From the NCBI GenBank assembly GCA_029780695.1, contig JAKOYD010000147.1:1-64000 (forward strand): a stretch of 64,000 nucleotides of DNA. The letters run 5' to 3'. Every line of letters begins with the position of its first letter. Positions within the stretch are counted from its first letter, which is position 1. This DNA comes from Pseudomonadota bacterium. Lineage in GTDB: Bacteria > Pseudomonadota > Gammaproteobacteria > Burkholderiales > Burkholderiaceae_C. Position numbers and translations under genes: made by a program. Positions 4,312 to 59,765 of this stretch are shown here, piece by piece. The notes beneath the pieces were generated by a model. The model saw only the letters and a program-made list of their open reading frames with translations, was not told the DNA's origin and did not search any database.

Positions 4312-4362
4312 GCTACTTTTTTGATAGCTGCATGCGCTTGTCCAGAAGGCGCAAGCGGGCTG
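4312..4362 (+). repeat. R1 dispersed repeat
   Basis: The A/T hairpin GCTAC-TTTTTTG-ATAGC is followed by GCGCTTG ... GCGCAAGC. It starts eight bases after the deaminase stop codon. Confidence 0.7.
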
Positions 4363-4468
4363 TTTGAATCGAAATCCGCCGCTGCCGCAGGCGCGTGAGA
4401 AAATCGCCGCCGGCGCCCGTGCTCCGGGGCGCCGCTTTCGTCACCCCGGAGCCATGTAGAGGAACACC

Positions 4469-5539
4469 ATGTACAAAAACCTCGCAGCTGCGTTCGCGGC
4501 CGCCTGTTTTTTCATCCCCGCCCTTGCCCAGACCGCCACGGCGCCGCTGAAAGTCGGCTACGTCTACGTCACGCCCGTCACCCAGGCCGGCTGGACGCGC
4601 CAGCACGACACCGCGCGGCGCGAGGTTGAAGCCGCCTTTGGCCCGCGCGTGGCCACCACCGCCGTGGCCGATGTGCCCGAAGGCGCCGACGCCGAGCGCG
4701 TGCTGCGCGACCTGGCGCAGCGGGGGCACCGCCTGATCTTCACCACCAGCTTCGGCTACGCCCGCCCGGTGCAGAAGGTGGCGCAGGAATTCCCGCAGGT
4801 CAAGTTCGAATGCCTGACCTGCCCGCAAGGCGCGGCCAACGTGGCCACCGCCAACGCGCGCTACTACGAAGGCCGCTACCTGGCCGGCATCGCCGCCGGG
4901 CGCATGAGCCAGAGCCACGTGGCCGGCTACGTGGCGGGCTTTCCCATCCCCGAGGTGCTGCAGGGCATCAACGCCTTCACCCTGGGCATGCGCAGCGTCG
5001 ACCCGAAGGCGCAGGTCAAGGTGGTGTGGCTGAACGAATGGTTCGACCCGGCCCGCGAGCGCGAAGCCGCGCTGACGCTGATCAACCAGGGCGCCGATGT
5101 GCTGGCCTTTCACACCGGGTCGACCGCGGTGATGGGCGCTGCCGAGGAGCGCGGCAAGCTCGCCATTGCCTACCACTCCGACATGCGCGCCGTCGCGCCC
5201 CAGGCGCAGCTGCTGGCGGTGACGCACCACTGGGCCGATTACGAAAAAGGCCGTGTCAAGGCCGCGCTGGACGGCACCTGGCAACCCGCTACCCTGTGGG
5301 GCGGCGTCAAGGAAGGCATGGTGCGCGTGGGCGATTTCGGCCCCAAGGTGCCGCGCGCCGTGCGCGACGAAGTGCTGGCCCGCCAGCGCGACATCGGCGC
5401 CGGGCGGCTGCATCCGTTCACCGGGCCGCTGCTCGACAACACCGGCCGCCCGCAACTGGCGCACGGCCAGCGGCTGAGCGACGCGCAGATCGTGGGCATG
5501 AACTGGCTGGTCGACGGCGTGCAGGGCAAGCTGCCCTGA
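4469..5539 (+). CDS. BMP family ABC transporter substrate-binding protein
   Basis: A 356-residue periplasmic receptor of the BMP/PnrA (Med) family, whose members bind purine nucleosides or related ligands for ABC importers. Residues 1-20 are a signal peptide with an ALA cleavage site before Gln 21. The mature part begins with the strand LKVGYVYVTPV and carries family features such as YYEGRYLAGIAAG and NQGADVLAFHTGS. ATG 4469 has a GAGGAA ribosome site. No permease or ATPase gene is adjacent, so it is an orphan receptor here, or works with components encoded elsewhere. A purine deaminase lies upstream and guanine deaminase downstream, which makes a purine ligand likely. Confidence 0.85.
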   Translation: MYKNLAAAFAAACFFIPALAQTATAPLKVGYVYVTPVTQAGWTRQHDTARREVEAAFGPRVATTAVADVPEGADAERVLRDLAQRGHRLIFTTSFGYARPVQKVAQEFPQVKFECLTCPQGAANVATANARYYEGRYLAGIAAGRMSQSHVAGYVAGFPIPEVLQGINAFTLGMRSVDPKAQVKVVWLNEWFDPAREREAALTLINQGADVLAFHTGSTAVMGAAEERGKLAIAYHSDMRAVAPQAQLLAVTHHWADYEKGRVKAALDGTWQPATLWGGVKEGMVRVGDFGPKVPRAVRDEVLARQRDIGAGRLHPFTGPLLDNTGRPQLAHGQRLSDAQIVGMNWLVDGVQGKLP

Positions 5540-5586
5540 CGCGGGGCCGCGCCTTGCCGCACGAAATCGCGCGCCTGCGCGCCCGC

Positions 5587-6144
5587 TCAGGCCAGCGTGG
5601 CGGCCTGTGTGCGCAGCTGCTCGGCCACGGCATCGAACGGCGCCGGGTCGCCCTCGGCGCGCGCCAGGATGATGGCGCCCTGCACCGACGCCAGCAGCAG
5701 CGTGGCAAACGGCAAAGCGCGCGGCGCGGGGCAATGGCCCGCCTGCAGCGCGTCGGCGAGGGTGTCGCGCCACTGGTGGAAGGCTTCGCGGCAGCTTTCC
5801 TGCAGGCGCATGGAATCGGCCGCGATCGTGATCGCCGCCACCGGGCAGCACGATTCGCAGTCGTTGCGCACCAGCTTGGCGCGCCACAGCGCCAGCGCGC
5901 CGTCCACCACCGCGCCGGCCGAGCGGCCATGCAGCGCGCGCAGCGAATCGTCCAGCCGGGCGCTGAAATCGTCCAGCGCGGCCTCGACCAGTTCGGCCTT
6001 GCCGCCCGGAAAGTGGTGGTAGATGGAGCCGCGCGAAGCGCCGGTCAGCGCCAGCACCTCGGAAAACGCCGTCGCGTGCAACCCACGCCGACCCAGGACC
6101 TCGGTGGCCCCTCGGATCATGCGCTGACGAACACCACCGGTCAT
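5587..6144 (-). CDS. TetR/AcrR family transcriptional regulator
   Basis: A 185-residue repressor. The N-terminal helix-turn-helix (about residues 10-55) has the typical GLHATAFSEVLALTGASRG and IYHHFPGGK segments; the C-terminal ligand-binding part is variable, with a CCPVAA stretch like LmrA/YxaF-type regulators. It is divergent from the acyl-CoA synthetase at 6383, with a 238-base gap holding a 6+4+6 palindrome (6228-6243). This suggests it represses itself and/or the synthetase gene. Ligand unknown; an acyl-CoA or carboxylate is a guess from the neighbours. Confidence 0.85.
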   Translation of the reverse strand: MTGGVRQRMIRGATEVLGRRGLHATAFSEVLALTGASRGSIYHHFPGGKAELVEAALDDFSARLDDSLRALHGRSAGAVVDGALALWRAKLVRNDCESCCPVAAITIAADSMRLQESCREAFHQWRDTLADALQAGHCPAPRALPFATLLLASVQGAIILARAEGDPAPFDAVAEQLRTQAATLA

Positions 6145-6227
6145 TGGCTATTTCGCCCCTCAGACAGAGCCCGAATCCGCTTCAACATCGAAGCCCGGGC
6201 AGCATATCAACCCCTGTGCCAGGGTGT

Positions 6228-6243
6228 TATGTCATACGACATA
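6228..6243. promoter_or_regulatory. Probable TetR operator palindrome
   Basis: TATGTC-ATAC-GACATA is a perfect 6-bp inverted repeat with a 4-bp centre. It lies between the divergent tetR-type gene and the acyl-CoA synthetase gene. Size and position fit a TetR-family operator. A weak R1-like half element follows at about 6266-6297. Confidence 0.5.
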
Positions 6244-6382
6244 GCGCACGACTGGCGCGGCTGTCTAGCTATCAGTTTCAAAGCAGCCCTGGCTTGGGGC
6301 CGCGCGGCGGAGTAACCCGGGCGACGCTGCCAGGGCCACGGCGCGCGAAGGCAGCGCTACGATGGTTGCAAGGAGGCATTCC

Positions 6383-8308
6383 ATGATCACCCACCCCCGT
6401 GCGAGCCTGCCCGCCGCGGCGGCGCCCTTTGCCGCGCAGGCGCCCGTGCGCAGCATGGCCGACGTGCGCCGCATCGAGACCGTGCCGCTTGAGCAGGCGC
6501 TGACGGTGCGCAGCACCTACGAAATCTTTGTCAATTCGGCGCACGCCTTTGGCGACCGGCCGGCGCTGACCTTCCTGCGCACCGCGAACCCGGCTGACGC
6601 GCCGATCCGCTGGTCGTACCAGCAGCTGCTGGCCGGCATCCACCAAACCGCCAACGCGCTGCATGCGCTGGGCGTGGGGCCACAGGATGCCGTGGCCGTG
6701 ATGCTGCCCGGCTGTCTTGAATACCACCTGGCGCTGTGGGGCGGCGAGGCGGCGGGCATCGTGCAGCCGCTCAACCCGTTGCTGACCGACGACAAGCTGG
6801 CCTCGCTGCTGAACGCCGCCGGCGCCAAGGTGCTGATCGCCTGGGGCGACGATGCCGAATCGGGCATCTGGAGCAAGGCGCTGCACCTGCGCACACTCGT
6901 GCCCACGCTGACGCACGTGCTGCGCGTGGCGCCGCTGGATGAAGGCAAGGCGCCCGCGCTGCCCGAGGGCGTGCTGGACTTTGCCGCCACCATCGCTGCG
7001 CAGCCCGACACGCACCTGGTCAGCGGCCGCGACATCGGCCCGGAAGACATCGCTGCCTACTTTCACACCGGTGGCACCACGGGCGCGCCCAAGCTGGCGC
7101 GCCACAGCCACCGCGCGCAGGTGTTCACCGCCTGGGCCTGCGTGCAGATGCAGGCCATGGGGCCGCAGGACGTGATCATCAACGGCTACCCGCTGTTCCA
7201 CGTGGCCGGCACGCTGCCCGGCTCGCTGGCGGCGCTGTCGTGCGGGGTCGAAACGATCATCCCCACCACCGGGCTGTACCGCAACCGCGCGGTGCTGCAG
7301 AACTTCTGGAAGCTGGTCGAAAAGTACCGCGTCACCACGCTGTCGGCCGTGCCCACGGTGCTGGCGGCGCTGGCGCAGGTGCCGCTGGCGGGCGCCGACA
7401 TTTCCAGCGTGCGCTACTGCCGCACGGGCGCGGCCATCCTGCCGCCCGAGCTGGCGGCGCGCTTCGAGCGCGATTACGGCCTGCACATCCACGAAAGCCT
7501 GGGCATGACGGAGATGGCCGGCATTTCCACCATCACGCCGCTGGGCGTGCACGGGCTGCCGGGCTGCGTGGGCTTTCGGCTGCCGCACACGCAGATGCGG
7601 ATCGTGGCGCTGAACGCCGACGGCGGCGCCAGCGACCGCGACGTGGCGCCGGGCGAGCCGGGCATGGTGCTGTTCAAGTCGCCCAACGTGTTCTCGGGCT
7701 TCCTCGACGAGCGCGACAACGCCAACGCCTTCACGCCCGACGGCTGGCTGGTGACGGGCGACCTGGGCTACATCGACCGCGACGAGCGCCTGAACCTGAG
7801 CGGCCGCGCCAAGGACCTGATCATCCGCAGCGGCCACAACATCGACCCCAAGACGATCGAGGACGCCATTGGCGCCCACCCCGCCGTGCAACTGGCCGCC
7901 GCCGTGGGCGCGCCCGATGCCTATGCGGGCGAATTGCCCGTGGTGTTTGCCACGCTGCGCCCCGGCGCGCAGGTGAGCGAGGCCGAGCTGCTGGCCTTCA
8001 CTGCCGAGCGCGTGGACGAAGGCCCGGCCAAGCCCCGACACGTGTACCTGATCGAGCACATGCCCGTCACCAACGTCGGCAAGATCTACAAACCCGAGCT
8101 GCGCGCCCAGGCCGCCGGCCACACGGCGCGCGAACTGATCGCCGCGCTGTGCCAGCCATTGCCGGCCGACCAGCAGCCGCGCGTGCACAGCACCGAAGCC
8201 GGCGGCGTGGTGGTGCACCTGCCGGCCGGCGCGCCCGACGCGCTGGCCGATCAACTGCAGGCGGCGCTGGCGCCTCTGCCGGTCAAGACCCGCGTGGTCC
8301 GCGATTGA
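6383..8308 (+). CDS. Acyl-CoA synthetase (AMP-dependent ligase)
   Basis: A 641-residue member of the adenylate-forming acyl/aryl-CoA synthetase family, which activates a carboxylic acid with ATP and joins it to CoA. The phosphate-binding loop is HTGGTTGAPK (about residue 228); the GMTEMAG motif is near 373; the hinge and C-terminal region contain GWLVTGDLGY and the GRAKDLIIRSGHNI segment. ATG 6383 is preferred over an ATG 21 bases upstream because it sits seven bases after a strong AAGGAGG. The substrate cannot be read from sequence. A Bug-type carboxylate receptor follows 41 bp later and a TetR gene is divergent, suggesting a small uptake and activation operon. Confidence 0.9.
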   Translation: MITHPRASLPAAAAPFAAQAPVRSMADVRRIETVPLEQALTVRSTYEIFVNSAHAFGDRPALTFLRTANPADAPIRWSYQQLLAGIHQTANALHALGVGPQDAVAVMLPGCLEYHLALWGGEAAGIVQPLNPLLTDDKLASLLNAAGAKVLIAWGDDAESGIWSKALHLRTLVPTLTHVLRVAPLDEGKAPALPEGVLDFAATIAAQPDTHLVSGRDIGPEDIAAYFHTGGTTGAPKLARHSHRAQVFTAWACVQMQAMGPQDVIINGYPLFHVAGTLPGSLAALSCGVETIIPTTGLYRNRAVLQNFWKLVEKYRVTTLSAVPTVLAALAQVPLAGADISSVRYCRTGAAILPPELAARFERDYGLHIHESLGMTEMAGISTITPLGVHGLPGCVGFRLPHTQMRIVALNADGGASDRDVAPGEPGMVLFKSPNVFSGFLDERDNANAFTPDGWLVTGDLGYIDRDERLNLSGRAKDLIIRSGHNIDPKTIEDAIGAHPAVQLAAAVGAPDAYAGELPVVFATLRPGAQVSEAELLAFTAERVDEGPAKPRHVYLIEHMPVTNVGKIYKPELRAQAAGHTARELIAALCQPLPADQQPRVHSTEAGGVVVHLPAGAPDALADQLQAALAPLPVKTRVVRD

Positions 8309-8349
8309 CGCAGCGCGCAGCCTTCCCTTTCTTTCACAACGTACCCACC

Positions 8350-9354
8350 ATGAACATCACTTTCAAAAAGAATATGCCCCTGGCGCTTGCCCTGTCTGCG
8401 TCGGCAGCTATTATTTCAATAGCATCGCCAGCCAGCGCGCAAAGCGGTTATCCCAACAAGCCGATCCGGATGGTGGTGCCCTTCCAGGCGGGCGGCGCCA
8501 CCGACGTACTGGCGCGGCTGGTGGGCCAGAAGCTGTCGGCGCAGATGGGTCAGCCGGTGGTGATCGACAACAAGGCCGGGGCGGCCGGCATCATCGGCAC
8601 CGACGCGGTGGCCAAGGCCGCGCCCGATGGCTACACGGTGATGCTGGGCCTGTCCAACTCGCTCATGACCAACCAGTTCCTCTACACCAAGCTGCCCTAC
8701 GACGCGCAGAAGGACCTGGCCATGGTCTACCGCATCGCCATGGCGCCGCTGGTGCTGGTGGTCAACCCCAGCGTGCCGGCCAAGACGGGCCCCGAATTGA
8801 TGAAGTACATCGCCGCCCAAAAGGGCAAGGTGTCGTACGGCTCGTACGGCACCGGCGCCTACCCGCACCTGGCCGGCGCGCACATGAGCCTGACGCAGAA
8901 CGCCGACATGGTGCACGTCGCCTACAAGGGCGAGGCGCCGATGGTGCAGGACCTGCTGGCCGGCCAGATCCAGATGGCGTTTGCCAGCGCGCTGCAGGTC
9001 AAGGGTCACCTCGATTCGGGCAAGCTGCGCGCCATCGGCGTGTCGGGCGACAAGCGCATGGCCGCGCTGCCCAAGGTGCCCACGCTGGTCGAGCAGGGCC
9101 TGAAGGACGAGGCCTACCGCGTCACCGGCTGGCTGGCCGTGGCCGCCCCCGGTGCCACGCCGCAACCCATCATCGACCGGCTGGCCAGCGAAATCCAGAA
9201 GGCCATCCGCTCGCCCGAAGTGCATGAGCGCATCGTCGGCATGGGCTTCGAGGTGCAGGACAACGGCGGCCCCGCGGCCTTCAACGCCGCGTACCGGCAA
9301 GAACTGCCGATCTGGTACCGCCTGATCAAGCAGTCGGGCGCCAAGCTGGACTGA
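8350..9354 (+). CDS. Bug family (tripartite tricarboxylate transporter) substrate-binding protein
   Basis: A 334-residue periplasmic receptor. Residues 1-30 are a signal peptide ending ASPASA before QSGYPNKPIR. YPNKPIRMVVPFQAGG, followed by DVLARLVGQ, IIGTDAVAKAAPDGYT and a GKVSYGSYGTGAYPHLAG segment, is the Bug signature. These receptors bind carboxylates and are very numerous in Burkholderiales, often without their own TctAB membrane partners, as here. It follows the acyl-CoA synthetase closely and is probably co-transcribed. The hydrophobic core of the signal peptide is encoded by an R1-like sequence (about 8403-8428). Confidence 0.9.
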   Translation: MNITFKKNMPLALALSASAAIISIASPASAQSGYPNKPIRMVVPFQAGGATDVLARLVGQKLSAQMGQPVVIDNKAGAAGIIGTDAVAKAAPDGYTVMLGLSNSLMTNQFLYTKLPYDAQKDLAMVYRIAMAPLVLVVNPSVPAKTGPELMKYIAAQKGKVSYGSYGTGAYPHLAGAHMSLTQNADMVHVAYKGEAPMVQDLLAGQIQMAFASALQVKGHLDSGKLRAIGVSGDKRMAALPKVPTLVEQGLKDEAYRVTGWLAVAAPGATPQPIIDRLASEIQKAIRSPEVHERIVGMGFEVQDNGGPAAFNAAYRQELPIWYRLIKQSGAKLD

Positions 9355-9391
9355 GCCAGGCTGCCGCGGCAGGGCGCGGCACAATGCGCCG

Positions 9392-10687
9392 ATGCAATCC
9401 TGGCGCGCTTCCCTGCTGCGGTTCGACGAGCACGGCCACGCCGTGTTCGAGCGCGACGGCCTGCTGGTCATCGGCGCCGGCGCCGACGGACGCACCGTGG
9501 TGCTGGCGGCGGGCGCCTATGACGCGCTGAAAGATCGCCACGCCGACGTGCCCTGCACCCACCTGCCAGGCCGCCTCATCGCGCCCGGTTTTGTGGACAT
9601 GCACATCCACTATCCGCAGATCGACGTCATCGGCTCGCCCGCCGAAGGTCTGCTGCCGTGGCTGGAGCACTACACCTTTCCGCACGAGGCGCAGTTCGCC
9701 GACCCGGCGCACGCGGCCGAAAGCGCGCGCTTCTTCTGCGACGAGCTGCAGCGCAACGGGGTGACGACGGCGCTGAGCTTCTGCACCTCGCATCCGGCGT
9801 CTGTCAATGCTCTGTTTTCAGAAGCGCAAAAACGTGGACTGCGGCTGATTGCCGGCAAGTGCCTGCAAGACCGCCACAGCCCCGACGGCGTGCGCGACGA
9901 GACCGAGCAGAGCCTGATCGACACCGAGGCGTTGATCAAAAAATGGCACGGCGTGGGCCGCCTGGGCTACGCCATCACGCCGCGTTTTGCCCCCAGTTGC
10001 AGCGAGCGGCAGTTGCGCGGCGCGGGCGAGCTGGCGGCCCGATATCCCGACGTGTGGATCCAGTCCCACGTGGCCGAGAACGTCGATGAAATCGCCTGGG
10101 CGCGCGCGCTGTTCCCCGATTCGCGCAGCTACCTCGCCATCTACGCCGACCACGGCCTGATGCGCCGGCGCGCGGTGTACGCGCACTGCATCCACTTTCA
10201 CGACGACGATCGCGCGCTCATGCGCGACACGCACACGGCGGCGGCGGTGTGCCCCACCAGCAACCTGTTTCTGGGCAGCGGCTTCTTCGACTTTGCGGGC
10301 GCAGAGCGCGTGCCGTTTGCGCATGGCCTGGCCAGCGACGTGGGCGGCGGCACCAGCTTTTCGCCCCTCGTCACCATGCGCGCCGCCTACTTTGCCGGCC
10401 GCGCGTCGAGCACCGGCATAGAGCTCAAGCCGGGCGTCAGCCTGTCGCCCGAGCGCCTGTGGTGGCTGCACACGGCAGGCGCGGCGCGGGCGCTGGATCT
10501 GGACGGCGTGGTCGGCAACCTGCAGCCGGGTTGCGAGGCGGATTTCGTGGTGCTCAACCCCGAAGCCACACCGCTGCTGGCGCGCCGCACGCGCGCGGCA
10601 GGCAGCCTGGCCGAGTTGCTGTTCGCGCTGATCGTGCTGGGCGACGACCGGGTGGTCGAGCGCACCGTCATTTCTCAAGCAAAATAG
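9392..10687 (+). CDS. guaD: Guanine deaminase
   Basis: A 431-residue amidohydrolase that converts guanine to xanthine. Metal-binding HIH is in DMHIHYPQ (about residue 70) and is followed by EGLLPWLEHYTFPHE, typical of GuaD. Later motifs are QSHVAENVDEI, AHCIHFHDDD and SDVGGGTSFS (zinc and catalytic residues). ATG 9392 fits family starts. With the purine deaminase at 3245 and the BMP receptor it points to purine-base use. The last codons and the stop TAG lie in an R1 repeat, so the C-terminus SQAK may be repeat-derived. Confidence 0.92.
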   Translation: MQSWRASLLRFDEHGHAVFERDGLLVIGAGADGRTVVLAAGAYDALKDRHADVPCTHLPGRLIAPGFVDMHIHYPQIDVIGSPAEGLLPWLEHYTFPHEAQFADPAHAAESARFFCDELQRNGVTTALSFCTSHPASVNALFSEAQKRGLRLIAGKCLQDRHSPDGVRDETEQSLIDTEALIKKWHGVGRLGYAITPRFAPSCSERQLRGAGELAARYPDVWIQSHVAENVDEIAWARALFPDSRSYLAIYADHGLMRRRAVYAHCIHFHDDDRALMRDTHTAAAVCPTSNLFLGSGFFDFAGAERVPFAHGLASDVGGGTSFSPLVTMRAAYFAGRASSTGIELKPGVSLSPERLWWLHTAGAARALDLDGVVGNLQPGCEADFVVLNPEATPLLARRTRAAGSLAELLFALIVLGDDRVVERTVISQAK

Positions 10688-10732
10688 GGCTCTGGCGCTT
10701 GCCTGACAAGCGCAACCAGCTATCAAAATCAG
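10677..10732 (-). repeat. R1 dispersed repeat (overlaps guaD stop)
   Basis: GGCGCTTG-CCTGA-CAAGCGC is followed by AGCTATCAAAAT. The repeat's AAAATGGG-like end reads AAAATAGGG here and supplies the guaD TAG stop. Confidence 0.7.
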
Positions 10733-10743
10733 AGTAAGCAAAG

Positions 10744-11313
10744 ATGAGCATCAAGAGCGACAAATGGATCCGCCGCATGGCCGAGCAGCACGGCATGATC
10801 GAGCCCTTCGAGCCCGGTCAGGTGCGGCAAAACGCCGCCGGCGAAAAGATCGTCAGCTACGGCACCAGCAGCTACGGCTACGACATCCGCTGCGCGCCCG
10901 AATTCAAGGTCTTCACCAACATCCACAGCACAGTGGTGGACCCGAAGAACTTTGACGAGAAAAGCTTCGTCGACATCCACGCGCCGGTCTGCATCATCCC
11001 GCCCAACAGCTTTGCGCTGGCGCGCACGGTCGAATATTTCCGCATCCCGCGCAACGTGCTGACCATTTGCCTGGGCAAGAGCACCTACGCGCGCTGCGGC
11101 ATCATCGTCAACGTGACACCGTTCGAGCCCGAGTGGGAAGGCTACGTGACGCTCGAATTCAGCAACACCACCCCGCTGCCCGCCAAGATTTACGCCGGCG
11201 AGGGCTGCGCGCAGGTGCTGTTCTTCGAGAGCGATGAGGTCTGCGAGGTCAGCTACAAGGACCGCGGCGGCAAGTACCAGGGCCAGGTCGGCGTGACGCT
11301 GCCCAAGGCCTGA
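10744..11313 (+). CDS. dcd: dCTP deaminase
   Basis: A 189-residue homotrimeric enzyme that deaminates dCTP to dUTP for thymidylate synthesis. Length and motifs match the family: [14 protein letters not shown] near the N-terminus, [16 protein letters not shown], the [11 protein letters not shown] segment, and [17 protein letters not shown] with the catalytic glutamate. ATG 10744 lies 56 bases after the guaD stop, with most of the gap filled by an R1 repeat. It is a housekeeping gene, not an obvious member of the purine cluster upstream. Confidence 0.95.
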
Positions 11314-11425
11314 CGCCGCCAACGCCGCGTCGGCGCCTGGCGACGGCCCGGCTGGGTGGGTTTCCTACGCCATGCGTCGCCGCCGGCTGAATGGCGCCGG
11401 CGGGCGCCGTTCATAGCATCGGCAC

Positions 11426-11770
11426 ATGGCTACCCACCACATTCGCCTCAGCACGCTGGATTCGCCGGACTTCCAGGACACCGTGCCCGCCGGTCACAGG
11501 CCTTCCACGCCCACCATGCGCCGCGCGTCAGCCGCCGATGACGCACTGCCGTGGCTGTCGCCGCAGCGCCTGGTGGTGTTTGCCGCGCTGGCAGCGCTTA
11601 TCTTCGTGCTGGTGGCGGCCATTGCCAGCGTGGCGCAGGCGCAAGTGCGCAAGGGCAACGAGTTTCGTCTCGCGCAGCACACGGCCGCCCCCCAGACCGC
11701 GGCCGCCGAAACGCGGCGCGCCAACTTCGACGTGGCCGCGCTGGGACCGGTGGCGGCGCTGTCGCGCTAA
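11426..11770 (+). CDS. Small single-pass membrane protein, unknown function
   Basis: A predicted 114-residue protein with no family I recognise. A polar N-terminal part (about residues 1-47) is followed by one hydrophobic helix (about 48-70, rich in A, L, V and I) and an Ala/Gln-rich tail. The frame starts with ATG 11426 shortly after dcd and converges on the cyclodeaminase-like gene, whose stop is four bases after this one. Codon use fits the neighbourhood, but support is only frame length and the clear membrane segment. Confidence 0.5.
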   Translation: MATHHIRLSTLDSPDFQDTVPAGHRPSTPTMRRASAADDALPWLSPQRLVVFAALAALIFVLVAAIASVAQAQVRKGNEFRLAQHTAAPQTAAAETRRANFDVAALGPVAALSR

Positions 11771-11773
11771 CGT

Positions 11774-12706
11774 CTACACCGGGTCAGGCGCCAACGCTGA
11801 TCGCCCGGCCAGCCGCGCGGCCGCCAAGTCCCAGCCGGCCCACCCGCAGCTTTTGAACAGCACCGGCCCGCCTTCGTCGCGGGCTTTTTTGTGACCGTTC
11901 ACCACATCGGCCAGTGTGGGCAGTCCACTCACCTCCAGGCCGGCCTGAAGCAGGTCACCCGCCTCGTGCCCGGCATCGGCCGAATCGACCACGATGCGCC
12001 CCTGCGCAGCGATAGCGCGGCACACCGCGGCGTCGATCTCCACCATCCGCGGCGTGAACGCGCCCACGGCGGCGATGAAGGCGTCGGCGCGCGGCTGGCC
12101 GCGCAGCACCACCTCGGTGGCGGGCGTGCAGGTGGCAACCAGGGGGCAATCGGCCAGCGCGGCGTCGGCGTCGCCCACCACCTCGGCCCGCAGGCCCAAC
12201 GCGCGCGCGTGCGCGGCCAGCGACTCGGCGCTGGCGCGGCGGCGCGAGGCGATGCGGAAGTCCGTCACGCCCAGCGCGGCGGCAAATACCTCGACGTGCG
12301 CATAACCCTGCACGCCCGCGCCGACGATGAGCATCGGCCCCGCCAGGTTCGGCGCCAGCCAGCGCGCGGCCAGGGCCGACACGGCGGCGGTGCGCCGGCC
12401 GGTGACCGTGGGCCCGTCCAGGATCAGGCGGCGTTCGCCCGTGGCGACGTCGAACACCGTCACGTCGCCCTGAATGGTCGCCCGGTCGGTGCCTGCGTTG
12501 GCGGGCGTGAAGGTGATGAGCTTGGTCATCGCCGTGCGCTCGTCGCAGCCGGGCATGGCAAACAGGAAGGCGCCCGCGGCCATCGGCAGCACGGTGCGCG
12601 GCGGCACCTGCACCGTGTCGTCGGCCAGCAGGGCCTCGATTTCATCGACCAGCGGCGCCCAGGGCAGGCGCGCGGCGGTGGCGGCAGCGTCGAGCAGGAT
12701 GTTCAT
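11774..12706 (-). CDS. Ornithine cyclodeaminase / mu-crystallin family protein (probable 1-pyrroline-2-carboxylate reductase)
   Basis: A 310-residue NAD(P)-dependent enzyme. The Rossmann motif GAGVQGYAHVEVF (about residue 125) and the family stretches KLITFTPANAG, GDVTVFDVATGERRL and GAFTPRMVEID are clear. Members include ornithine cyclodeaminase, 1-pyrroline-2-carboxylate and 1-piperideine-2-carboxylate reductases and ketimine reductases; the exact substrate is uncertain. ATG 12706 is chosen over upstream in-frame starts because MNILLDAAATA begins like relatives. It is downstream of pcp on the same strand, so both could be involved in proline or glutamate-type amino acid breakdown. Confidence 0.85.
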   Translation of the reverse strand: MNILLDAAATAARLPWAPLVDEIEALLADDTVQVPPRTVLPMAAGAFLFAMPGCDERTAMTKLITFTPANAGTDRATIQGDVTVFDVATGERRLILDGPTVTGRRTAAVSALAARWLAPNLAGPMLIVGAGVQGYAHVEVFAAALGVTDFRIASRRRASAESLAAHARALGLRAEVVGDADAALADCPLVATCTPATEVVLRGQPRADAFIAAVGAFTPRMVEIDAAVCRAIAAQGRIVVDSADAGHEAGDLLQAGLEVSGLPTLADVVNGHKKARDEGGPVLFKSCGWAGWDLAAARLAGRSALAPDPV

Positions 12707-12756
12707 GCGGGACATTCTGGCAGCCGCCGGGCCGGACGCTGGCGACACCACGTCTT

Positions 12757-12815
12757 AGCTATCATAAAAATAGCTGCTCGCGCTGCCACGGCAAGCGCCA
12801 GACCCACTTTTTGTC
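12757..12815 (+). repeat. R1 dispersed repeat (long copy)
   Basis: AGCTAT-CATAAAA-ATAGCT, then CGCGCTG-CCACG-GCAAGCGC, then CAGACCC and ACTTTTTGTC. It lies between pcp and the cyclodeaminase-like gene and is the best match for the copy inside uup. Confidence 0.75.
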
Positions 12816-13500
12816 AATCAATGGCACCGCCAGTGGCACGCACGTCATCTTGCACCGTCAGCGCGGTGCGCAGGCCCACGCGCACGCCTTCAACCATCGC
12901 ATCCAGCGGCAAACTGGGCGCGCCCTGCTCGGGCAACAGGGGCACATGGATGAAGCCGCCGCGCGTGCCCGAGAAGCCGCGCGCCGTGGCCAGGCGGTGC
13001 ATCAGACCATAGAACACGTGGTTGCAGACGAAGGTGCCAGCGGTCTGCGAAATTTCGGCCGGCACGCCGGCGGCCTGAATGGCCTGCTGCATGGCCTTGA
13101 TGGGCAGCGTGCTGAAATAGGCCGCGGGCGCACCGGCGACCACCGGCGTGTCGATCGGCTGCGCGCCGGCGTTGTCGGCGATGCGTGCGTCGTCGACGTT
13201 GATGGCGATGCGTTCCAGCGACAGCGCGGCGCGCGTGGCCGCCAGGCCCAGGCAGACGATCAGCGCGGGCCGGTGCGCGGCCATCAACGCCCGCAAGTGC
13301 TGGAGCGATGCGCCGAACTCGGTCGGCAACTGCGCGGCGACGATGCGGTGGCCGGCCACGCGCTTGCCGTGCAGCGCCTGGGCGATGAGCCAGCTGGGGT
13401 TGAGCGCGTCGCCGCCAAACGGGTCAAACCCTGTCAGCAACACGCGGGGTGGTTTGTGGCGCTTGTCTGACGGGCGCCGGGGGGTGGGGGCAGCTACCAT
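12814..13500 (-). CDS. pcp: Pyroglutamyl-peptidase I
   Basis: A 228-residue cysteine peptidase that removes N-terminal pyroglutamate from peptides. The PGFDPFGG-like start is present as LLTGFDPFGGDALNPS. The catalytic triad is recognisable: Glu in LSLERIAIN, Cys in GTFVCNHVFYG, and His in GFIHVPLLPEQ. ATG 13500 gives an N-terminal extension of about 18 residues relative to typical Pcp; a later start is possible but none is obvious. Its last bases overlap the end of an R1 repeat. Cytoplasmic. Confidence 0.92.
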   Translation of the reverse strand: MVAAPTPRRPSDKRHKPPRVLLTGFDPFGGDALNPSWLIAQALHGKRVAGHRIVAAQLPTEFGASLQHLRALMAAHRPALIVCLGLAATRAALSLERIAINVDDARIADNAGAQPIDTPVVAGAPAAYFSTLPIKAMQQAIQAAGVPAEISQTAGTFVCNHVFYGLMHRLATARGFSGTRGGFIHVPLLPEQGAPSLPLDAMVEGVRVGLRTALTVQDDVRATGGAID

Positions 13501-13539
13501 AGCGGCAATTTAGCGCAGCGGCGCGGCAGGAGCGACACG

Positions 13540-14418
13540 ATGAGATGGGAAGGCGAACGGCAGTCGGACAACGTGGAAGATCGGCGCGCCGGCGGTGGCG
13601 GAGGCGGCGGCGGGTTCGGCTTTGGTGGCCGCAGCATCGGCATTGGCACCATCGTCATCGCGTTGCTGGCGTGGGGGGTGTTCGGCATCAACCCGCTGAC
13701 GACGATTGGCGTGCTGGGTGGGGCCGGTTCGCCGCAGGTGGTGCAGCAAGGGCCGGCGCAGAAGCCGCCGGCCAATGACGCGGGCGCGGCGTTTGTGTCC
13801 ACCGTGCTGGCGTCCACCGAAGACGCGTGGACGCAGGTGTTTCGCCAAGGCGGCGCGCAGTACCGGCCGCCCAAGCTGGTGCTGTTCCGCGGTGTGACGC
13901 CCACGGCCTGCGGCACCGGCCAGGCAGCCATGGGGCCGTTTTATTGCCCCGGCGACCAGAAGGTCTACCTGGACATGAACTTCTTCGACACGCTCAGCCG
14001 CCAGTTGGGCGCGCCGGGCGAATTCGCGCGCGCCTACGTGGTGGCGCACGAGGTGGGGCACCACGTGCAGACGCTGCTGGGCACCACCGCCAAGGTGGAC
14101 GGCTTGCGCGGCCGCGTCAGCGAGCGCGAAAACAACGCCCTGTCGGTGCGCATGGAACTGCAGGCCGACTGCTTTGCCGGCATCTGGGCCAACAAGTCGC
14201 AGCAAGCCAAGAACTGGCTGGATCAGGGCGACATCGAATCGGCCATGAATGCGGCCGCGCGCATCGGCGACGACACGCTGCAACGTCAGCAGACCGGCGC
14301 GGTGCGTCCCGATTCCTTCACCCACGGCAGCAGCGCCCAGCGCCAACGCTGGTTCATGCAGGGGCTGAAGACGGGCAGCGTGCAGGCGTGCGATACCTTC
14401 AACGCGCAGAGTTTGTAA
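13540..14418 (+). CDS. Neutral zinc metallopeptidase, YpfJ family
   Basis: A 292-residue protein of the YpfJ/KPN_02809 family. A polar start with a glycine-rich stretch (about residues 15-30) is followed by one membrane helix (about 33-60). The putative peptidase domain carries the zinc motif HEVGHHVQ (about residue 170), preceded by FYCPGDQKVYLDMNFF and followed by the MELQADCFAG segment that supplies the third ligand. Family length and domain order are normal. It is divergent from pcp with a 39-base gap. Function of the family is poorly known. An R2 repeat begins directly after its TAA stop. Confidence 0.9.
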   Translation: MRWEGERQSDNVEDRRAGGGGGGGGFGFGGRSIGIGTIVIALLAWGVFGINPLTTIGVLGGAGSPQVVQQGPAQKPPANDAGAAFVSTVLASTEDAWTQVFRQGGAQYRPPKLVLFRGVTPTACGTGQAAMGPFYCPGDQKVYLDMNFFDTLSRQLGAPGEFARAYVVAHEVGHHVQTLLGTTAKVDGLRGRVSERENNALSVRMELQADCFAGIWANKSQQAKNWLDQGDIESAMNAAARIGDDTLQRQQTGAVRPDSFTHGSSAQRQRWFMQGLKTGSVQACDTFNAQSL

Positions 14419-14518
14419 CCCCCTGAGTCGGCCTGCGGCCGCCATCCCCCAAAGGGGACAACGCCAGTCGCCGGCACAGGTCCGGCGATGGCGTTCTGGC
14501 GCGGCCTGCTTCGCGGCC
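14419..14518 (-). repeat. R2 dispersed repeat, copy A
   Basis: Begins with CCCCCTGAG at the base after the YpfJ-family TAA stop and ends GCGGCC. It contains CCCCCAAAGGGG and CCGGCACAGGTCCGG hairpins. Copies A, R1 (14567-14612) and B fill the gene-free stretch 14419-14774; I see nothing else there except the start of rhlE. Confidence 0.75.
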
Positions 14519-14566
14519 ACTGGAAGGCGGCTTGCTGCGCAGCCGCTTTTTATGGGCGGTTTGTGG

Positions 14567-49830: not shown

Positions 49831-49835
49831 TTTCA

Positions 49836-49886
49836 GCCTCCAGCGCTTGTCCAGACAGCGCAATCAGCTACCTTTTCAGTAGCATT
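49836..49886 (-). repeat. R1 dispersed repeat carrying the pdxA ribosome site
   Basis: On the minus strand: GCTACTGAAAAGGTAGCTG, GCGCTG-TCTGGA-CAAGCGC, then TGGAGGC. The GGAGG lies just before the TTG start of pdxA. Confidence 0.7.
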
Positions 49887-49888
49887 CG

Positions 49889-50662
49889 TCACGCCGGGTT
49901 GTCGATCTCGATGAATTCGTGGGCGATGCCCAACTGCGCCGCCACGTGCGCCGCCAACGCAGGCGCGCCGTAGCGTTCGGTGGCGTGGTGGCCGCAGGCG
50001 TAGAACACCACGCCGCATTCGCGCGCCAGGTGGGCCTGCGGCTCGGAAATCTCGCCCGTGATGAAGGCCTGCGCCCCCGCGGCGATGGCCGATTCAAAAT
50101 AACCCTGCGCGCCGCCACTGCACCACGCTATTTTGTTGATAGCTTCATGCGCTTGCCCCACCTGCGTGACGGGGCGATGCAGCACGTGCTCCAGCTGCCA
50201 CGCCAGCACGTCGGCGTCTGCAAAGGCTTCGCCGTCGGCGCGGTGGCCGATAAAGCCCAGGTCCTGCTCGCCGAAGCGCCCCGTGGCCTGCAGCCCCAGT
50301 CGCTGGCCCAGTTGCGCGTTGTTGCCCAGCGTGGGGTGCGCGTCCAGCGGCAGGTGGTAGGCCAGCAGGTTGATGTCGTGCGCCAGCAGGCGCTTCAGGC
50401 GCTCCTTCATCCACCCCGTGACGGTCCCGTCCTGCCCGCGCCAGAACAGCCCGTGGTGCACCAAGATGGCGTCGGCCCCGGCGGCGATGGCGGCGTCGAT
50501 CAGCGCGCGGCTGGCCGTCACGCCGCTGACCAGCTTGGCGATGCGCGGCTTGCCCTCGACCTGCAGGCCATTGGGGCCGTAGTCCTTGAAGCGCTCGGGC
50601 TGCAGCTCGGCGTGGCAGGCGGCCAGCAGCGCGGCGCGGTCGATGGCGGTGGCAGAAGACAT
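49889..50662 (-). CDS. Nif3-like dinuclear metal-centre hexameric protein
   Basis: A 257-residue member of the Nif3/YbgI family. Metal-binding motifs: VHHGLFWRG, HLPLDAHPTLGN and the C-terminal GHHATERYG. Family proteins assemble as rings with two metals per subunit; proposed roles include GTP cyclohydrolase-like activity, but no general function is established. ATG 50662 is chosen over a TTG 18 bases upstream. An R1 copy (50125-50165) encodes residues around GQAHEAINKIA without breaking the frame. Confidence 0.88.
   Translation of the reverse strand: MSSATAIDRAALLAACHAELQPERFKDYGPNGLQVEGKPRIAKLVSGVTASRALIDAAIAAGADAILVHHGLFWRGQDGTVTGWMKERLKRLLAHDINLLAYHLPLDAHPTLGNNAQLGQRLGLQATGRFGEQDLGFIGHRADGEAFADADVLAWQLEHVLHRPVTQVGQAHEAINKIAWCSGGAQGYFESAIAAGAQAFITGEISEPQAHLARECGVVFYACGHHATERYGAPALAAHVAAQLGIAHEFIEIDNPA
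50125..50165 (+). repeat. R1 repeat copy inside the nif3-like coding sequence
   Basis: GCTATTTTGTTGATAGC, then TTCATGCGCTTGCC with a poor second arm. It is read in frame on the minus strand. Confidence 0.6.
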
Positions 50663-53469: not shown

Positions 53470-53520
53470 AAACTATCAAATTCATAGCTAAAAGCGCTTT
53501 CACATCAAGCGCTGCGGGCC
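53470..53520 (+). repeat. R1 dispersed repeat (good full copy)
   Basis: ACTATCAAATTCATAGCT, AAAGCGCTT-TCACAT-CAAGCGCT, then GCGGGCC. It starts one base after the protease stop and lies between two convergent genes. Confidence 0.75.
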
Positions 53521-53574
53521 AATTCAACTGATTGTTGCGCGCGCAGGCGTGGCCGCGCGGCGTGCACCGGCCAC

Positions 53575-58094: not shown

Positions 58095-58144
58095 ACTACG
58101 TTTTTGATAGCTGATTGCGCTTGTCCATCAAGCGCTGGAGGCCC
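58095..58144 (+). repeat. R1 dispersed repeat
   Basis: ACTACGTTTTTGATAGCTG, TGCGCTTG-TCCAT-CAAGCGCT, then GGAGGCCC. A full copy with both hairpins. Confidence 0.75.
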
Positions 58145-58169
58145 ATTGCACTCAAATCAGCGATCGAAC

Positions 58170-58279
58170 GGCCGCGCAGCAGGCCCTGCCAGATCACCCC
58201 GGCCGGGCTTGCACCGGCCGTCGGTGATGCCCCCTGAGGGGGTGGCGGAGCATGGCGAAGCCCCTGGAGCCTGGGGTGG
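58170..58279 (+). repeat. R2 dispersed repeat, copy E
   Basis: GGCCGCGCAGCAGGCC, CCGGCCGGGCTTGCACCGG, CCCCCTGAGGGGG, ending CCTGGGGTGG. The next base begins the (reverse) stop codon of gdhA. This copy is the most diverged. Confidence 0.7.
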
Positions 58280-59623
58280 TCAGAGCACGCCCTGCGCCAG
58301 CATGGCGTCGGCAATCTTCACGAAGCCGGCGACGTTGGCGCCTTCGACGTAGTTGACGCTGCCATCGCTCTTTTCGCCGTGGCGCACGCAGTTGCCGTGA
58401 ATGTCCTTCATGATTTCGTGCAGGCGCAGGTCCACTTCGCTGTGCGTCCACGACAGGCGCATGGCGTTCTGGCTCATCTCCAGGCCCGAGGTGGCCACGC
58501 CGCCCGCGTTGCTGGCCTTGCCCGGCGCGTACAGCGTGCCGGCGGCCAAGAAGCAATCCACCGCCTCCAGCGTGCTGGGCATGTTGGCGCCTTCGGCCAC
58601 GCAGACCACGCCGTTGGCGATCAGGTGCTTGGCATCCTGTGCGTCCAGCTCGTTCTGCGTGGCGCAGGGCAGCGCAATGTCGACCGGCACGTGCCAGGGG
58701 CGCTTGCCGGCCTCGAACTTCAGCTTGTGCTGCGTGGCAAAGTCCTTCAGGCGGCCGCGCTGCACGTTCTTGAAATCCATCACGTCCTTCAGCAGGCCTT
58801 CGGTCATGCCGGCTTCGCACACCAGGGTGCCGTCGGAGTCGGACAGCGTGACGACCTTGGCGCCCAGTTCCATGGCCTTGTCGGCCGCGTACTGCGCCAC
58901 GTTGCCCGAGCCGGAGATGCTGACGCTGCGGCCCTCGAAGCCCATCTGCTTGCGGCGCAGCATCTCCTGCGCGAAGTACACCGTGCCGTAGCCGGTGGCC
59001 TCGGGGCGCATCAGGCTGCCGCCGTAGGACATGCCCTTCCCGGTGAACACGCTGCCGGCGTCGTTGGCCAGCTTTTTCATCATGCCGGCCATGAAGCCGA
59101 CTTCGCGCGCGCCCACGCCGATGTCGCCGGCGGGCACGTCGGTGTCGGCGCCCAGGTGGCGGTACAGCTCGGTCATCAGCGCCTGGCAGAAGCGCATCAC
59201 CTCGCCATCGCTCTTGCCCTTGGGGTCGAAGTCGCTGCCGCCCTTGCCGCCGCCCATGGGCAGCGTGGTCAGCGCATTTTTCAGCGTCTGCTCGAAGCCC
59301 AAAAATTTCAGGATCGACAGGTTCACGCTGGGGTGAAAGCGCATGCCGCCCTTGTACGGGCCGATGGCCATGCTGTGCTGCACGCGGAAGGCGCGGTTGA
59401 CCTGCGTCTGCCCCTTGTCATCCACCCAGGCCACGCGGAACTGGATCACGCGGTCGGGCTCGACCAGGCGCTCCAGCAGACCGTGCTCGCGATAGCGCGG
59501 GTGCCGGTCCAGAAACGGCCACAGCGAGGTCATCACTTCGCGCACGGCTTGCAGGAACTCGGGCTGCTGCGGATCGCGCCGCTGCACGGCACTCAGAAAT
59601 TCTTCAAGGCTGGTGGCGCTCAC
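58280..59623 (-). CDS. gdhA: NADP-type glutamate dehydrogenase
   Basis: A 447-residue enzyme that makes glutamate from 2-oxoglutarate and ammonia. PYKGGMRFHPSVNLSILKFLGFEQ, PMGGGKGGSDFDPKGKSDGE (substrate site) and SISGSGNVAQYAADKAMELG (nucleotide site) are typical of the NADP-dependent, roughly 447-residue hexameric type. The start is GTG 59623, with AAGGAG upstream. It interrupts the his gene order between hisF and hisI. Confidence 0.95.
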   Translation of the reverse strand: MSATSLEEFLSAVQRRDPQQPEFLQAVREVMTSLWPFLDRHPRYREHGLLERLVEPDRVIQFRVAWVDDKGQTQVNRAFRVQHSMAIGPYKGGMRFHPSVNLSILKFLGFEQTLKNALTTLPMGGGKGGSDFDPKGKSDGEVMRFCQALMTELYRHLGADTDVPAGDIGVGAREVGFMAGMMKKLANDAGSVFTGKGMSYGGSLMRPEATGYGTVYFAQEMLRRKQMGFEGRSVSISGSGNVAQYAADKAMELGAKVVTLSDSDGTLVCEAGMTEGLLKDVMDFKNVQRGRLKDFATQHKLKFEAGKRPWHVPVDIALPCATQNELDAQDAKHLIANGVVCVAEGANMPSTLEAVDCFLAAGTLYAPGKASNAGGVATSGLEMSQNAMRLSWTHSEVDLRLHEIMKDIHGNCVRHGEKSDGSVNYVEGANVAGFVKIADAMLAQGVL

Positions 59624-59713
59624 TCAACGGGCTCCTTGCAAGGTGGACTGTGAACCAAACGGTCAATGATGCACCAAAAAAAGGCGCAGGCGGTTGCGCT
59701 GCGGCAAGAAAGT

Positions 59714-59765
59714 TTGCTCTATTTTTAATAGCTATCAGCGCAGTCTGGTCAAGCGCCAGCGGTCG
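59714..59765 (+). repeat. R1 dispersed repeat
   Basis: TGCTCTATTTTTAATAGCTATC, AGCGCAG-TCTGGT-CAAGCGCC, then AGCGG. It lies in the hisF-gdhA gap. Confidence 0.7.

Follow-up and report, generated by a model that had tools for sequence, protein, structure and literature searches.

The question raised by this locus is what the short repeat, here named R1, represents that recurs throughout the window, a 64-kb stretch of an Ottowia MAG (G000, the host genome). The first-pass annotation described it as a dispersed two-hairpin repeat and proposed selection on structure or REP/BIME-like spread by a transposase acting in trans. R1 proved to be about 66 bp long. An A/T part is followed by a linker, then by a middle of 19 bp, and last by a tail rich in A and T. 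This tail, about GGCCnATTTnnCtnnAAA, lies 3' of the G/C part and is a third component overlooked in the first pass. The element is directional, with the A/T part first, and copies are carried by both strands.

A weight matrix trained on the host genome, window included, was compared with the same DNA reversed, for which the maximum score was 21.4 bits over 616.7 kb. All 15 copies listed earlier, given as a minimum number, exceed this control, and the window total is 18 (Table 1), ranging from 28 bits (2892–2957) to 72 bits (10670–10735). Two supposed 'A/T-hairpin halves' also lie above the control. The one at 28701 is really a full copy (46 bits); at 48725 a stretch resembling a copy (35 bits) overlaps an ordinary terminator-like hairpin with its T run. 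The supposed excess over control sequence was borne out: across 617 kb of host DNA, 175 copies score above the best reversed-DNA match, which scales up to about 1,100 copies per genome. A model was also built from the 15 window copies and recovered its own training copies at E ≤ 3.4e-11. At E ≤ 0.01 it gave 111 matches over 464 kb of sequence, of which 400 kb lie beyond the window; a few of these matches are one copy matched on both strands. No Rfam match to R1 was obtained at gathering score in the 64-kb window, where only rRNA and two tRNAs were matched.

Table 1. R1 copies in the 64-kb window, scored with the host-genome weight matrix, and the state of their sites in other genomes.
Feature	Position	Strand	Score (bits)	Site in host and other genomes
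R1 copy, weak, inside called gene 1151–3166	2892–2957	−	28.3 (reversed maximum 21.4)	
R1 copy	4312–4377	+	65.7	Junction 165 bp in host; without copy 72 (G006), 105 bp (G015)
R1 copy, overlooked in the first pass	8358–8423	−	61.1	
R1 copy, tail enters 3' end of gene 9392–10687	10670–10735	−	71.8	Also occupied in G001, G002, G004, G015, G027
R1 copy	12758–12823	+	57.7	Junction 107 bp in host; without copy −1 (G005), 4 (G006), 68 (G015), 227 (G008), 315 bp (G001)
R1 copy	14547–14612	−	46.4	
R1 copy	16262–16327	+	53.4	
R1 copy, immediately 3' of stop codon of gene 22442–23740	23741–23806	+	50.5	Also occupied in G001, G002, G004, G005, G006, G007, G018, G027
R1 copy, full length (listed earlier as 'half')	28654–28719	−	45.9	
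R1 copy	37461–37526	−	46.8	Copy in G025 only 55% identical, flanks still similar
R1 copy	38961–39026	−	57.0	Empty in G025, occupied in G027
R1 copy	40428–40493	−	53.9	
R1-like copy overlapping terminator-like hairpin and T run	48731–48796	+	35.2	Terminator half also present in G001, G002, G004, G027
R1 copy	49818–49883	−	65.7	
R1 copy within called gene 49889–50662, open frame	50127–50192	+	36.0	
R1 copy, immediately 3' of stop codon	53472–53537	+	56.5	Copy in G025 53% identical, flanks diverged too
R1 copy	58095–58160	+	67.6	
R1 copy	59716–59781	+	66.4	

Copies above 30 bits have a median G+C content of 50%. The information is distributed across the 66 columns, which vary almost independently of one another; nevertheless, mutual information between columns is slightly but clearly above that of shuffles (0.0351 vs 0.0314, sd 0.0003), with a larger excess in G003 and G027, so the copies are not fully independent. 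R1 is also present in other Comamonadaceae, as had been suggested in the first pass. Within the genus, 16 genomes were sampled; the 13 that have R1 carry it at a similar density, 25–42 per 100 kb. A generic model, R2, has matches at E ≤ 0.01 in 24 of 29 genomes, some with only 1–5. Copy numbers refer here to the retrieved sequence stretches, and matches to the best-scoring candidates, of which a genome yields at most 150, 26 or 34. The low-copy genomes suggested by model R1 were rejected as such, since R2 finds G003, G007 and G015 full of the element; counts from model R1, which is tuned to one middle type, are therefore unusable as presence or absence.

The earlier view that pairing is largely kept, which had suggested selection on structure, did not withstand comparison with shuffled copies. 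Paired cells are as frequent as in shuffles in the window set of 15 (71.7 vs 71.9%) and not more frequent among 184 genome copies (0.703 vs 0.710 and 0.637 vs 0.640), and compensatory changes in the stems were looked for in both sets, with no covariation found. Most copies in G003 are unable to form full stems. Among 14 genome-by-stem tests in seven genomes, three exceeded shuffles, all by small amounts: the G/C stem in G027 (0.666 vs 0.647; 4/500 shuffles), the A/T part in G003 (0.625 vs 0.617; 0/500) and the G/C stem in G007 (0.518 vs 0.472; 17/500, with 22 copies); the others showed nothing or the reverse. Structure selection was thus rejected as a general property of R1.

The main comparative result beyond the single-window view is that R1 occupies fixed, inherited sites, while its middle differs species by species. 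Other Ottowia species carry copies at matching gene junctions, and the strand agrees in almost every case (152 of the 163 pairs with a single copy each, summed over overlapping species pairs); shared sites exceed chance in all 21 species pairs compared. The best pair is G002/G004, whose fourfold-degenerate sites are 64% identical: 22 of 93 gene junctions are occupied in both and two in one only, with 5.7 expected, and the strand is the same at 19 shared sites and different at one. Even in the weakest pair, G002/G001, five of 51 junctions are occupied in both and nine in one only (1.7 expected). Between G003 and G000, 12 junctions could be compared, one being occupied in each genome and none in both, so the G003 variant may be a separate expansion. 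In G000/G025, at least 86 of 99 copies are at shared places, a lower bound because two of the 13 'empty' places (items 3 and 44) show a copy when aligned; 18 of the 86 are less than 75% identical. Across 47 comparisons of an occupied with an empty junction, the length difference ranges between −99 and +267 bp, with a median of +24, and no clean target-site duplication of the MITE kind was seen at empty sites in the alignments inspected.

The 19-bp middle differs between most sampled genomes, being alike in G000, G025, G027 and G013. Its fit to own-species and other-species models was calculated at shared sites, leaving one copy out each time. The own-species middle was found in 17/19 G002 copies and 19/19 G004 copies at sites shared by these two species (36/38), with a mean advantage of 7–8 bits, and in 142/156 cases over all seven (overlapping) pairs of unlike species, the lowest counts being 6/8 and, for G002 copies compared with G000 and G025, 5/8 and 6/9. 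For the A/T part and tail, the mean own-species advantage was only −0.8 to 1.4 bits. When the comparison is limited to columns that no called gene covers, tails at orthologous sites resemble each other more than tails paired at random between species do (0.559 vs 0.425), the A/T loop barely so (0.435 vs 0.384) and linkers not at all (0.438 vs 0.436); orthologous middles differ little from random cross-species pairs (0.591 vs 0.527), random copies within a species scoring 0.592. The joint change of the middle in most copies, in several species, points to a cellular factor that reads R1.

Occupied junctions comprise 30 convergent, 83 tandem and 7 divergent ones, compared with 60, 211 and 70, respectively, among all junctions of at least 60 bp. 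In tandem junctions, 36 copies have the same strand as transcription and 47 the opposite, which is no bias, and R1 starts at a median of 8 bp past the stop codon for same-strand copies and 24 bp for opposite-strand copies. The reported start near a stop codon therefore applies to many intergenic copies, but called genes contain the copies at 2892 and 50127, and also 43 of 164 strong copies. Genes were called with a simple purpose-written caller, and some starts are wrong; the called start at 8374, within the copy at 8358–8423, is probably set too far upstream. Lower-scoring in-gene matches (33–45 bits) lie in what we take to be TsaD, LysS and a quinone oxidoreductase, presumably of ordinary protein length, and may reflect coincidence or overwriting rather than insertion. 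The single in-gene case compared across genomes is the ParB gene, where the match scores 43 bits in G000 and 11 bits in G025, other genomes being compared by eye; the ParB linker is variable.

We give nearly an even chance to the reading of R1 as a DNA recognition element of 66 bp, dispersed and probably mobile in origin, with a middle that tracks a putative trans-acting factor. R1 would then keep many of its genomic sites over species divergence and be read as a sequence, not as a hairpin, by a putative DNA-binding factor contacting at least the 19-bp middle. If the preference of this factor changed in a lineage, most copies resident there would acquire a middle to match, through selection on the sites or through biased replacement, with other copies or incoming DNA as the source. 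The A/T part and tail would meanwhile stay closer to their inherited state. Speaking for this reading are the shared sites and strand, the own-species middles, the tails that still resemble their orthologues, the near independence of columns, the similar density among genomes and, in the copies polarised with G027, the slow loss of consensus bases at strong columns. Counted against the recognition element are that no reader protein was found and that in G013 and G017 the RAYT-like gene is bracketed by inverted R1 copies, as expected of REP. The slight linkage between columns, the A/T loops, the G003 variant and the lack of a significant difference between strong and weak columns in G000/G025 weigh against it too, as do the low-identity copies at shared places, since a copy inserted anew at an old place would look like one with a switched middle. 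More tentatively, and clearly short of an even chance, one could propose a Comamonadaceae 'dialect' system: each genome would hold about 1,000 fixed sites of 66 bp whose frame is constant, while the 19-bp middle is exchangeable and, in most sites of a lineage, can be switched in place together with the putative factor. If so, this factor might select self DNA in uptake or recombination, or organise the chromosome. These observations bear on how short repeats persist for long in bacterial genomes and on whether the cell makes use of them. Species whose R1 differs in one defined module can be compared at sites that they have inherited in common, and thereby what reads R1, and how a thousand copies change together, become testable; open-frame copies, such as that in ParB, are insertions whose presence can likewise be compared between species.

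The main rival reading, which we consider unlikely but worth serious weight, is that R1 belongs to the REP/REPIN-like elements, as a non-autonomous family mobilised by a RAYT in trans, its middles resulting from RAYT coevolution and continuing re-insertion. The RAYT gene envisaged in the first pass has a counterpart in the host genome, a single RAYT-like Y1_Tnp gene of about 244 aa with a degenerate R1 copy at its stop codon, and Y1_Tnp matches were found in 21 of 29 genus genomes, G000 included (20 over the cut-off; some short, IS200-like). The 23 Y1_Tnp loci were scanned with the G000 matrix only: an inverted R1 pair is close to the gene at two (L056 in G017, L066 in G013), with one copy just upstream, and a copy is present downstream only at three (L001 in G000, L058 in G002, L061 in G025), giving five with R1 at the downstream end; six have other or distant copies, and 12, which speak against this rival, have none above 14 bits. 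Six columns before the 19-bp palindrome, 135 of 184 copies have ATAG and 22 have GTAG, which comes fairly near to a REP head; the GTAG/GTGG-type heads in Table 1 of PMC2817692, which also reports RAYT/REP coevolution, directly adjoin the palindrome. The variable ParB linker and the much shorter length of certain empty junctions are consistent with mobility as well. However, the family occurs in G003 (complete, with a homogeneous family), G006 and G007, in which there is no Y1_Tnp match and no candidate; RAYT-type genes do not follow the distribution of R1 over the genus and were rejected as a clean correlate. Sites and strand common to several species also argue against this rival, and REPs keep their palindromes, which suggests complementary changes (PMC2817692), whereas R1 lacks covariation. 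The proposed REP/BIME likeness holds for high copy number, dispersal, REP-like placement and the RAYT-like gene, but not for hairpin selection.

DNA-uptake signals of the DUS/USS type are about 9–12 bp long, and some of their copies lie inside genes. R1, 66 bp long and diffuse, departs from such a short core, and we find it rather improbable that it is an uptake-type signal with species dialects, transformation favouring the recipient's own version. Its copy number, dialects and in-gene copies do recall DUS/USS, and its species-specific middles are genome-wide and found at shared sites too. Eight DUS dialects are described in Neisseriaceae (PMC3630211), and Verminephrobacter eiseniae, a member of the Comamonadaceae, is naturally transformable with seemingly sequence-limited DNA binding, although the passages of PMC4212676 describing this name no uptake sequence. 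ComEC is present in 26 of 29 genus genomes, but it failed as a discriminator, since it also occurs in genomes without an R1 match (G008, G011, G021); G010 and G026, both incomplete, have neither.

That R1 copies are neutral, functionless fossils of an ancient expansion, slowly decaying, appears very improbable, because a new middle shared at old sites is beyond the reach of decay. With G027 as the outgroup (18 sites), the consensus base was lost at strong columns in 29/977 site-lineages, compared with 34/356 changes at weak columns, about one third of the weak-column rate (10/492 vs 10/192 in the G001 lineage; 10/368 vs 14/176 in the G002 and G004 lineages). The larger G000/G025 analysis used weak columns alone to decide on orthology, which left 37 of 54 intergenic pairs; in these, no significant difference separated strong from weak columns (0.925 vs 0.903, CI of the difference −0.009 to 0.053), and we estimate that neutral decay fits these substitutions about as well as constraint. 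The two analyses disagree, and in-place purifying selection is not claimed. The fossil reading is also in line with some linkage between columns and the few copies in divergent junctions, as expected of deleterious insertions. Finally, R1 can hardly represent transcription terminators or 3' mRNA stability hairpins, despite the orientation of the occupied junctions, given the lack of stem covariation, the missing full stems in G003, the many in-gene copies, the unbiased strand and a consensus with no T run right after the G/C part. The Rho-independent pattern of a GC-rich stem and then a T run is thus missing from the consensus; the window copy at 48731 does overlap a terminator of this kind.

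Among known systems, Rickettsia palindromic elements are palindrome-like, keep an open frame inside protein genes and are longer than R1; their description sets them apart, since the host is different and most R1 copies are intergenic. REP/REPIN sequences, as characterised in PMC2817692 and PMC3116915, resemble R1 in being short, high-copy, mostly intergenic and palindrome-like, and R1 shares with them a RAYT-like gene in the genome and ATAG/GTAG near the palindrome. R1 differs in its greater length, three-part architecture and lack of covariation, in its presence in three genomes without a Y1_Tnp match, and in long-lived orthologous sites with switched middles. High copy number and species dialects are shared with DUS as described in PMC3630211, which are about 10 bp long compared with 66 bp for R1. 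The BRE of Bordetella and further Betaproteobacteria, according to its description in PMC3110155, is dispersed and mostly intergenic, with some copies in genes, and is reported in Comamonadaceae too; it is set apart by its 75–91 bp length and 69% G+C in Bordetella, tandem arrangement at some loci and at most 29 copies per genome, while R1 is mostly single.

A literature search for a described repeat found parts of R1 in PMC5217627 alone; in the text of PMC3733652, on palindromic repeats, none of six Comamonadaceae and class names was found. Table 7 of PMC5217627 lists the motif pairs GCTTAT(N)5AAGCG in Acidovorax ebreus (114 copies) and ATAGCT(N)22CAAAAG in Polaromonas naphthalenivorans (125 copies), so the first-pass suspicion that the family may have been seen was justified for these two fragments. 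The former has 44 copies in convergent, 4 in divergent and 59 in co-oriented positions and 5 in genes; the latter has 101 intergenic copies, 34 convergent and 18 in genes; their function was left open in that account (2017). By our own reading, the first pair fits R1 columns 25–30 with 36–40 and the second columns 13–18 with 41–46, both at exact spacing, the last AAAAG differing from the Ottowia consensus. In that description they are two separate motif pairs of single genomes, whereas R1 is a whole element with a tail, a species-specific middle and sites shared between species.

The R1 weight matrix, seeded with the 15 window copies and iterated over 616.7 kb of the host genome (G000; 3.9 Mb in 180 contigs), detected 175 copies scoring above the best match in the same DNA reversed (21.4 bits), with 18 copies above the reversed-control maximum in the window. 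At a threshold of 10 bits, 190 copies were found versus 2 in the reversed control, and a later count above 20 bits gave 178 copies, or 28.9 per 100 kb; scaled up, the total is about 1,100 per genome. The dispersed, high-copy repeat recognised in the first-pass annotation was thus borne out and extended. Its consensus is GCTATnaATTTgATAGC-TGCtt-GCGCTTGncnGGCAAGCGC-tgGnGGCc-nATTTgaCtcnnAAncc, that is, an A/T part, a linker, a 19-bp middle (the G/C part) and an A/T-rich tail, and the information is at background beyond column 66 and about five columns ahead of column 1.

The same annotation had taken pairing in the two hairpins to be largely kept, with selection on structure as one suggested cause, which the larger set of copies did not bear out. 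Among 184 copies from G000, the fraction of paired cells was 0.703 in the A/T part versus 0.710 expected from independent columns, and 0.637 versus 0.640 in the G/C part; the 15 window copies gave the same result, and six further genomes showed small excesses at most. The apparent complementarity of the arms comes from that of the consensus. In G003, another member of the genus, just three pairs of the A/T part, the outermost, form in the majority of copies, and the middle, GTCCTAGTGGAAactGCGC, has no palindromic symmetry. A search of Rfam returned no match to R1. Given the independent-column level of pairing and the middle of G003, R1 was rejected as a conserved RNA or single-stranded DNA structure.

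According to gene calls made by our own caller, 122 of the 190 copies in the G000 sample are intergenic. Occupied junctions comprise 30 convergent, 83 tandem and 7 divergent ones, the available junctions of at least 60 bp in the same sample being 60, 211 and 70, respectively. At tandem junctions, 47 copies lie opposite to the strand of the genes and 36 on it, the latter starting at a median of 8 bp past the stop codon. Called genes fully enclose 43 of the 164 copies that score above 30 bits, with 60 bp or more left on both sides, and the frames of these 43 are uneven: 21 are in phase 2 on the opposite strand and 11 in phase 0 on the same strand, with 6, 3 and 2 in the rest, the two most frequent frames being the two stop-free frames of the consensus. 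One R1 match (43 bits) lies in the ParB gene of G000 between QPILVR and YEIIAGERR, in a stretch of 23 residues; a stretch of similar length with R1-like letters, as judged by eye, is present in G027, G001, G006, G004, G002 and G005, and one of 6–13 residues in G018, G019, G020 and G024. Since further linker lengths exist, and the linker of G003 is long with no recognisable R1, this linker is variable in any case.

Features at and around R1 copies (L, fetched stretches of the genus genomes; G000:C51, contig of the host genome; Y1_Tnp, transposase domain family; RAYT, REP-associated tyrosine transposase)
Location	Feature	Observation
Window 1-682	16S rRNA gene, minus strand	Window begins inside the gene
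Window 12706-12814	Gene junction	107 bp in G000; copy-free in G005 (-1 bp), G006 (4 bp), G008 (227 bp) and G001 (315 bp)
Window 37461-37526	R1 copy	G025 occupied at same junction and strand, element 53-55% identical (level of unrelated copies), flanks similar
Window 53472-53537	R1 copy	As preceding row, flanks diverged
Window 48754-48785	Ordinary terminator-like hairpin and T run within R1-like copy	Terminator half at same site in G001, G002, G004, G027
L037:13826-13991 (G000:C51:73826-73991)	166-bp MITE-like repeat, distinct from R1	97% identical copy elsewhere in G025; orthologous G025 site apparently empty (2 bp between flanks)
L037:6451-6549 (G000:C51:66451-66549)	Repeat of about 100 bp near R1 copy at 6581	More than 30 G025 matches, mostly 80-91% identical
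L033:14675-14917	Patchwork of short repeats (about 30-170 bp)	Several G025 matches each; runs into R1 copy at 14845
L001:1435-2169	RAYT-like gene	Degenerate R1 copy across its stop codon, TGTCCCCAATTAA-type letters behind; downstream frame presumably glutamate-synthase-like
L130-L133, L138-L144 (G003)	R1, more homogeneous	Conserved about 18 bases past column 66, with second GCTCCTnTTTTTGATG-like end
L093-L094 (G018), some G001 sites	Inverted R1 pairs in one junction	Linked by TTCAGAT-type tails
G027	20 Y1_Tnp matches	Four are 153-aa IS200-like frames with near-identical scores; five pairs split across two frames at one position

A generic model of R1 (R2) matched 24 of the 29 genomes of the genus at E<=0.01 and, at E<=1e-4, 82 of 200 genomes and 55 of 115 genera of the family, many reaching the ceiling of 26 scored candidates per genome and some with a single match; at the level of the order, 3 of 150 matched, namely G000 itself and two of the same family. 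Among the matches listed in a letter-pattern scan were Ottowia, Acidovorax, Comamonas, Polaromonas, Ramlibacter, Diaphorobacter, Simplicispira, Giesbergeria and Paenacidovorax. No R1 match above 10 bits was found in the 20 kb sampled from each of G008, G010 and G028.

Sites of R1 are inherited between species. G025 is 90–94% identical to window positions 4001-20000 across most of the stretch, and of 112 copies on three G000 contigs, 99 could be placed in G025 and at least 86 are common to both. Occupancy was further compared, for 21 species pairs, at gene junctions conserved in both genomes; where each species had a single copy, 152 of 163 comparisons, not independent of one another, agreed in strand. 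G002 and G004 are 64% identical at fourfold-degenerate sites. Across 47 comparisons of occupied and empty junctions, the difference in length was broadly spread (median +24 bp), empty alleles sometimes held other repeats, and no clean target duplication was found.

R1 occupancy of conserved junctions and own-species fit of the middle in pairs of genus genomes
Pair	Junctions	Both occupied	Single	Expected	Strand same:opposite	Own-species middle
G002/G004	93	22	1 and 1	5.7	19:1	17/19 and 19/19 (mean 7.1 and 8.0 bits)
G000/G027	49	14	0 and 3	4.9	14:0	
G004/G027	63	15	0 and 5	4.8	13:1	13/13 and 12/13
G025/G027 (less shared)		17	0 and 11			
G002/G001 (less shared)		5	6 and 3	1.7		
G004/G001 (less shared)		6	4 and 4			
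G002/G027						10/12 and 12/12
G000/G002						8/8 and 5/8
G000/G004						8/9 and 9/9
G025/G002						9/9 and 6/9
G025/G004						6/8 and 8/8

R1 was present in 13 of 16 sampled genomes at 25–42 copies per 100 kb. The A/T part and the tail, and mostly also TGC, are seen again from genome to genome, while the middle differs: it is GCGCTTGnnnnnCAAGCGC-like in G000, G025, G027 and G013, GCGCAGgTgGnTcTAGGGC in G002 and GCGCaGGTncnaCggGCGC in G004, with further types in G001, G003, G007, G015 and G018. In this survey the consensus came from just 5–8 copies for G002, G004, G005, G006, G013 and G015; larger sets gave the middles of G002 (58 copies) and G004 (66 copies). Such differences could stem from separate expansions or from change at old sites. 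When copies at orthologous sites on the same strand were scored by models from which the copy itself had been omitted, 142 of 156 middles in seven pairs fitted their own species, and the same mean scores for the A/T part and the tail were -0.8 to 1.4 bits. Identities were calculated for these seven pairs together, which are not independent, as species and sites recur, over columns that lie in no called gene of either species. Orthologous copies exceeded random cross-species pairs in the tails (0.559 versus 0.425), columns 42-50 (0.529 versus 0.434), the A/T parts (0.695 versus 0.625) and the A/T loop alone (0.435 versus 0.384). The linker has no memory of orthology (0.438 versus 0.436) and the middle little (0.591 versus 0.527, with 0.592 for random same-species copies). 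These identities and the own-species fit indicate that the tails were inherited and the middles moved together. The observation that deserves follow-up is this species-specific middle, which is concerted across sites that were inherited.

At 18 sites polarised with G027 as the outgroup, the consensus base was lost in 29 of 977 site-lineages of strong columns, and weak columns changed in 34 of 356; smaller sets with other outgroups gave the same direction, strong columns changing less. Non-consensus site-lineages showed 11 gains in 189, somewhat inflated by mis-polarisation, and 6 changes to another base. Between G000 and G025, strong and weak columns did not differ significantly in 37 of 54 intergenic pairs, picked by weak columns only, a result that neutral decay could also give. 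There is therefore a moderate case that R1 is constrained in place, and a stronger one that the middle underwent directed change, since a new shared motif cannot arise by decay.

The simplest account would be a trans-acting factor that reads R1 with a specificity varying from lineage to lineage. The thousand middles could have changed through site-by-site selection, or through a biased process that replaces them with sequence from other copies or from incoming DNA. Of the 86 G000/G025 pairs, 18 are less than 75% identical, and in some it looks as if the entire element had been exchanged at its site. Such replacement of whole copies could be performed by a RAYT transposase, and it is possible that R1 is moved in this way: RAYT-like genes flanked by inverted R1 copies occur in G013 and G017, and ATAG/GTAG lies near the R1 palindrome. 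However, no Y1_Tnp match was found in the complete genome of G003, despite its homogeneous and longer version of R1, nor was there a candidate in G006 and G007, and of four REP/RAYT features tested, one, a palindrome maintained through complementary changes, failed and three gave mixed results.

The whole element, its species types and its shared sites were not found described in the literature searched, mostly outside subscription journals. PMC5217627 presents two unexplained spaced motifs, biased to convergent and co-oriented junctions like R1, and their letters and spacing suggest a reading as fragments of R1. Besides a factor reading R1, a role as a DNA-uptake signal would account for both the dialects and molecular drive, although ComEC occurs with or without R1 in genomes of the genus. 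PMC4212676 describes Verminephrobacter eiseniae, of the same family, as transformable, its DNA binding showing signs of a limit set by sequence; the available part of that paper names no uptake sequence.
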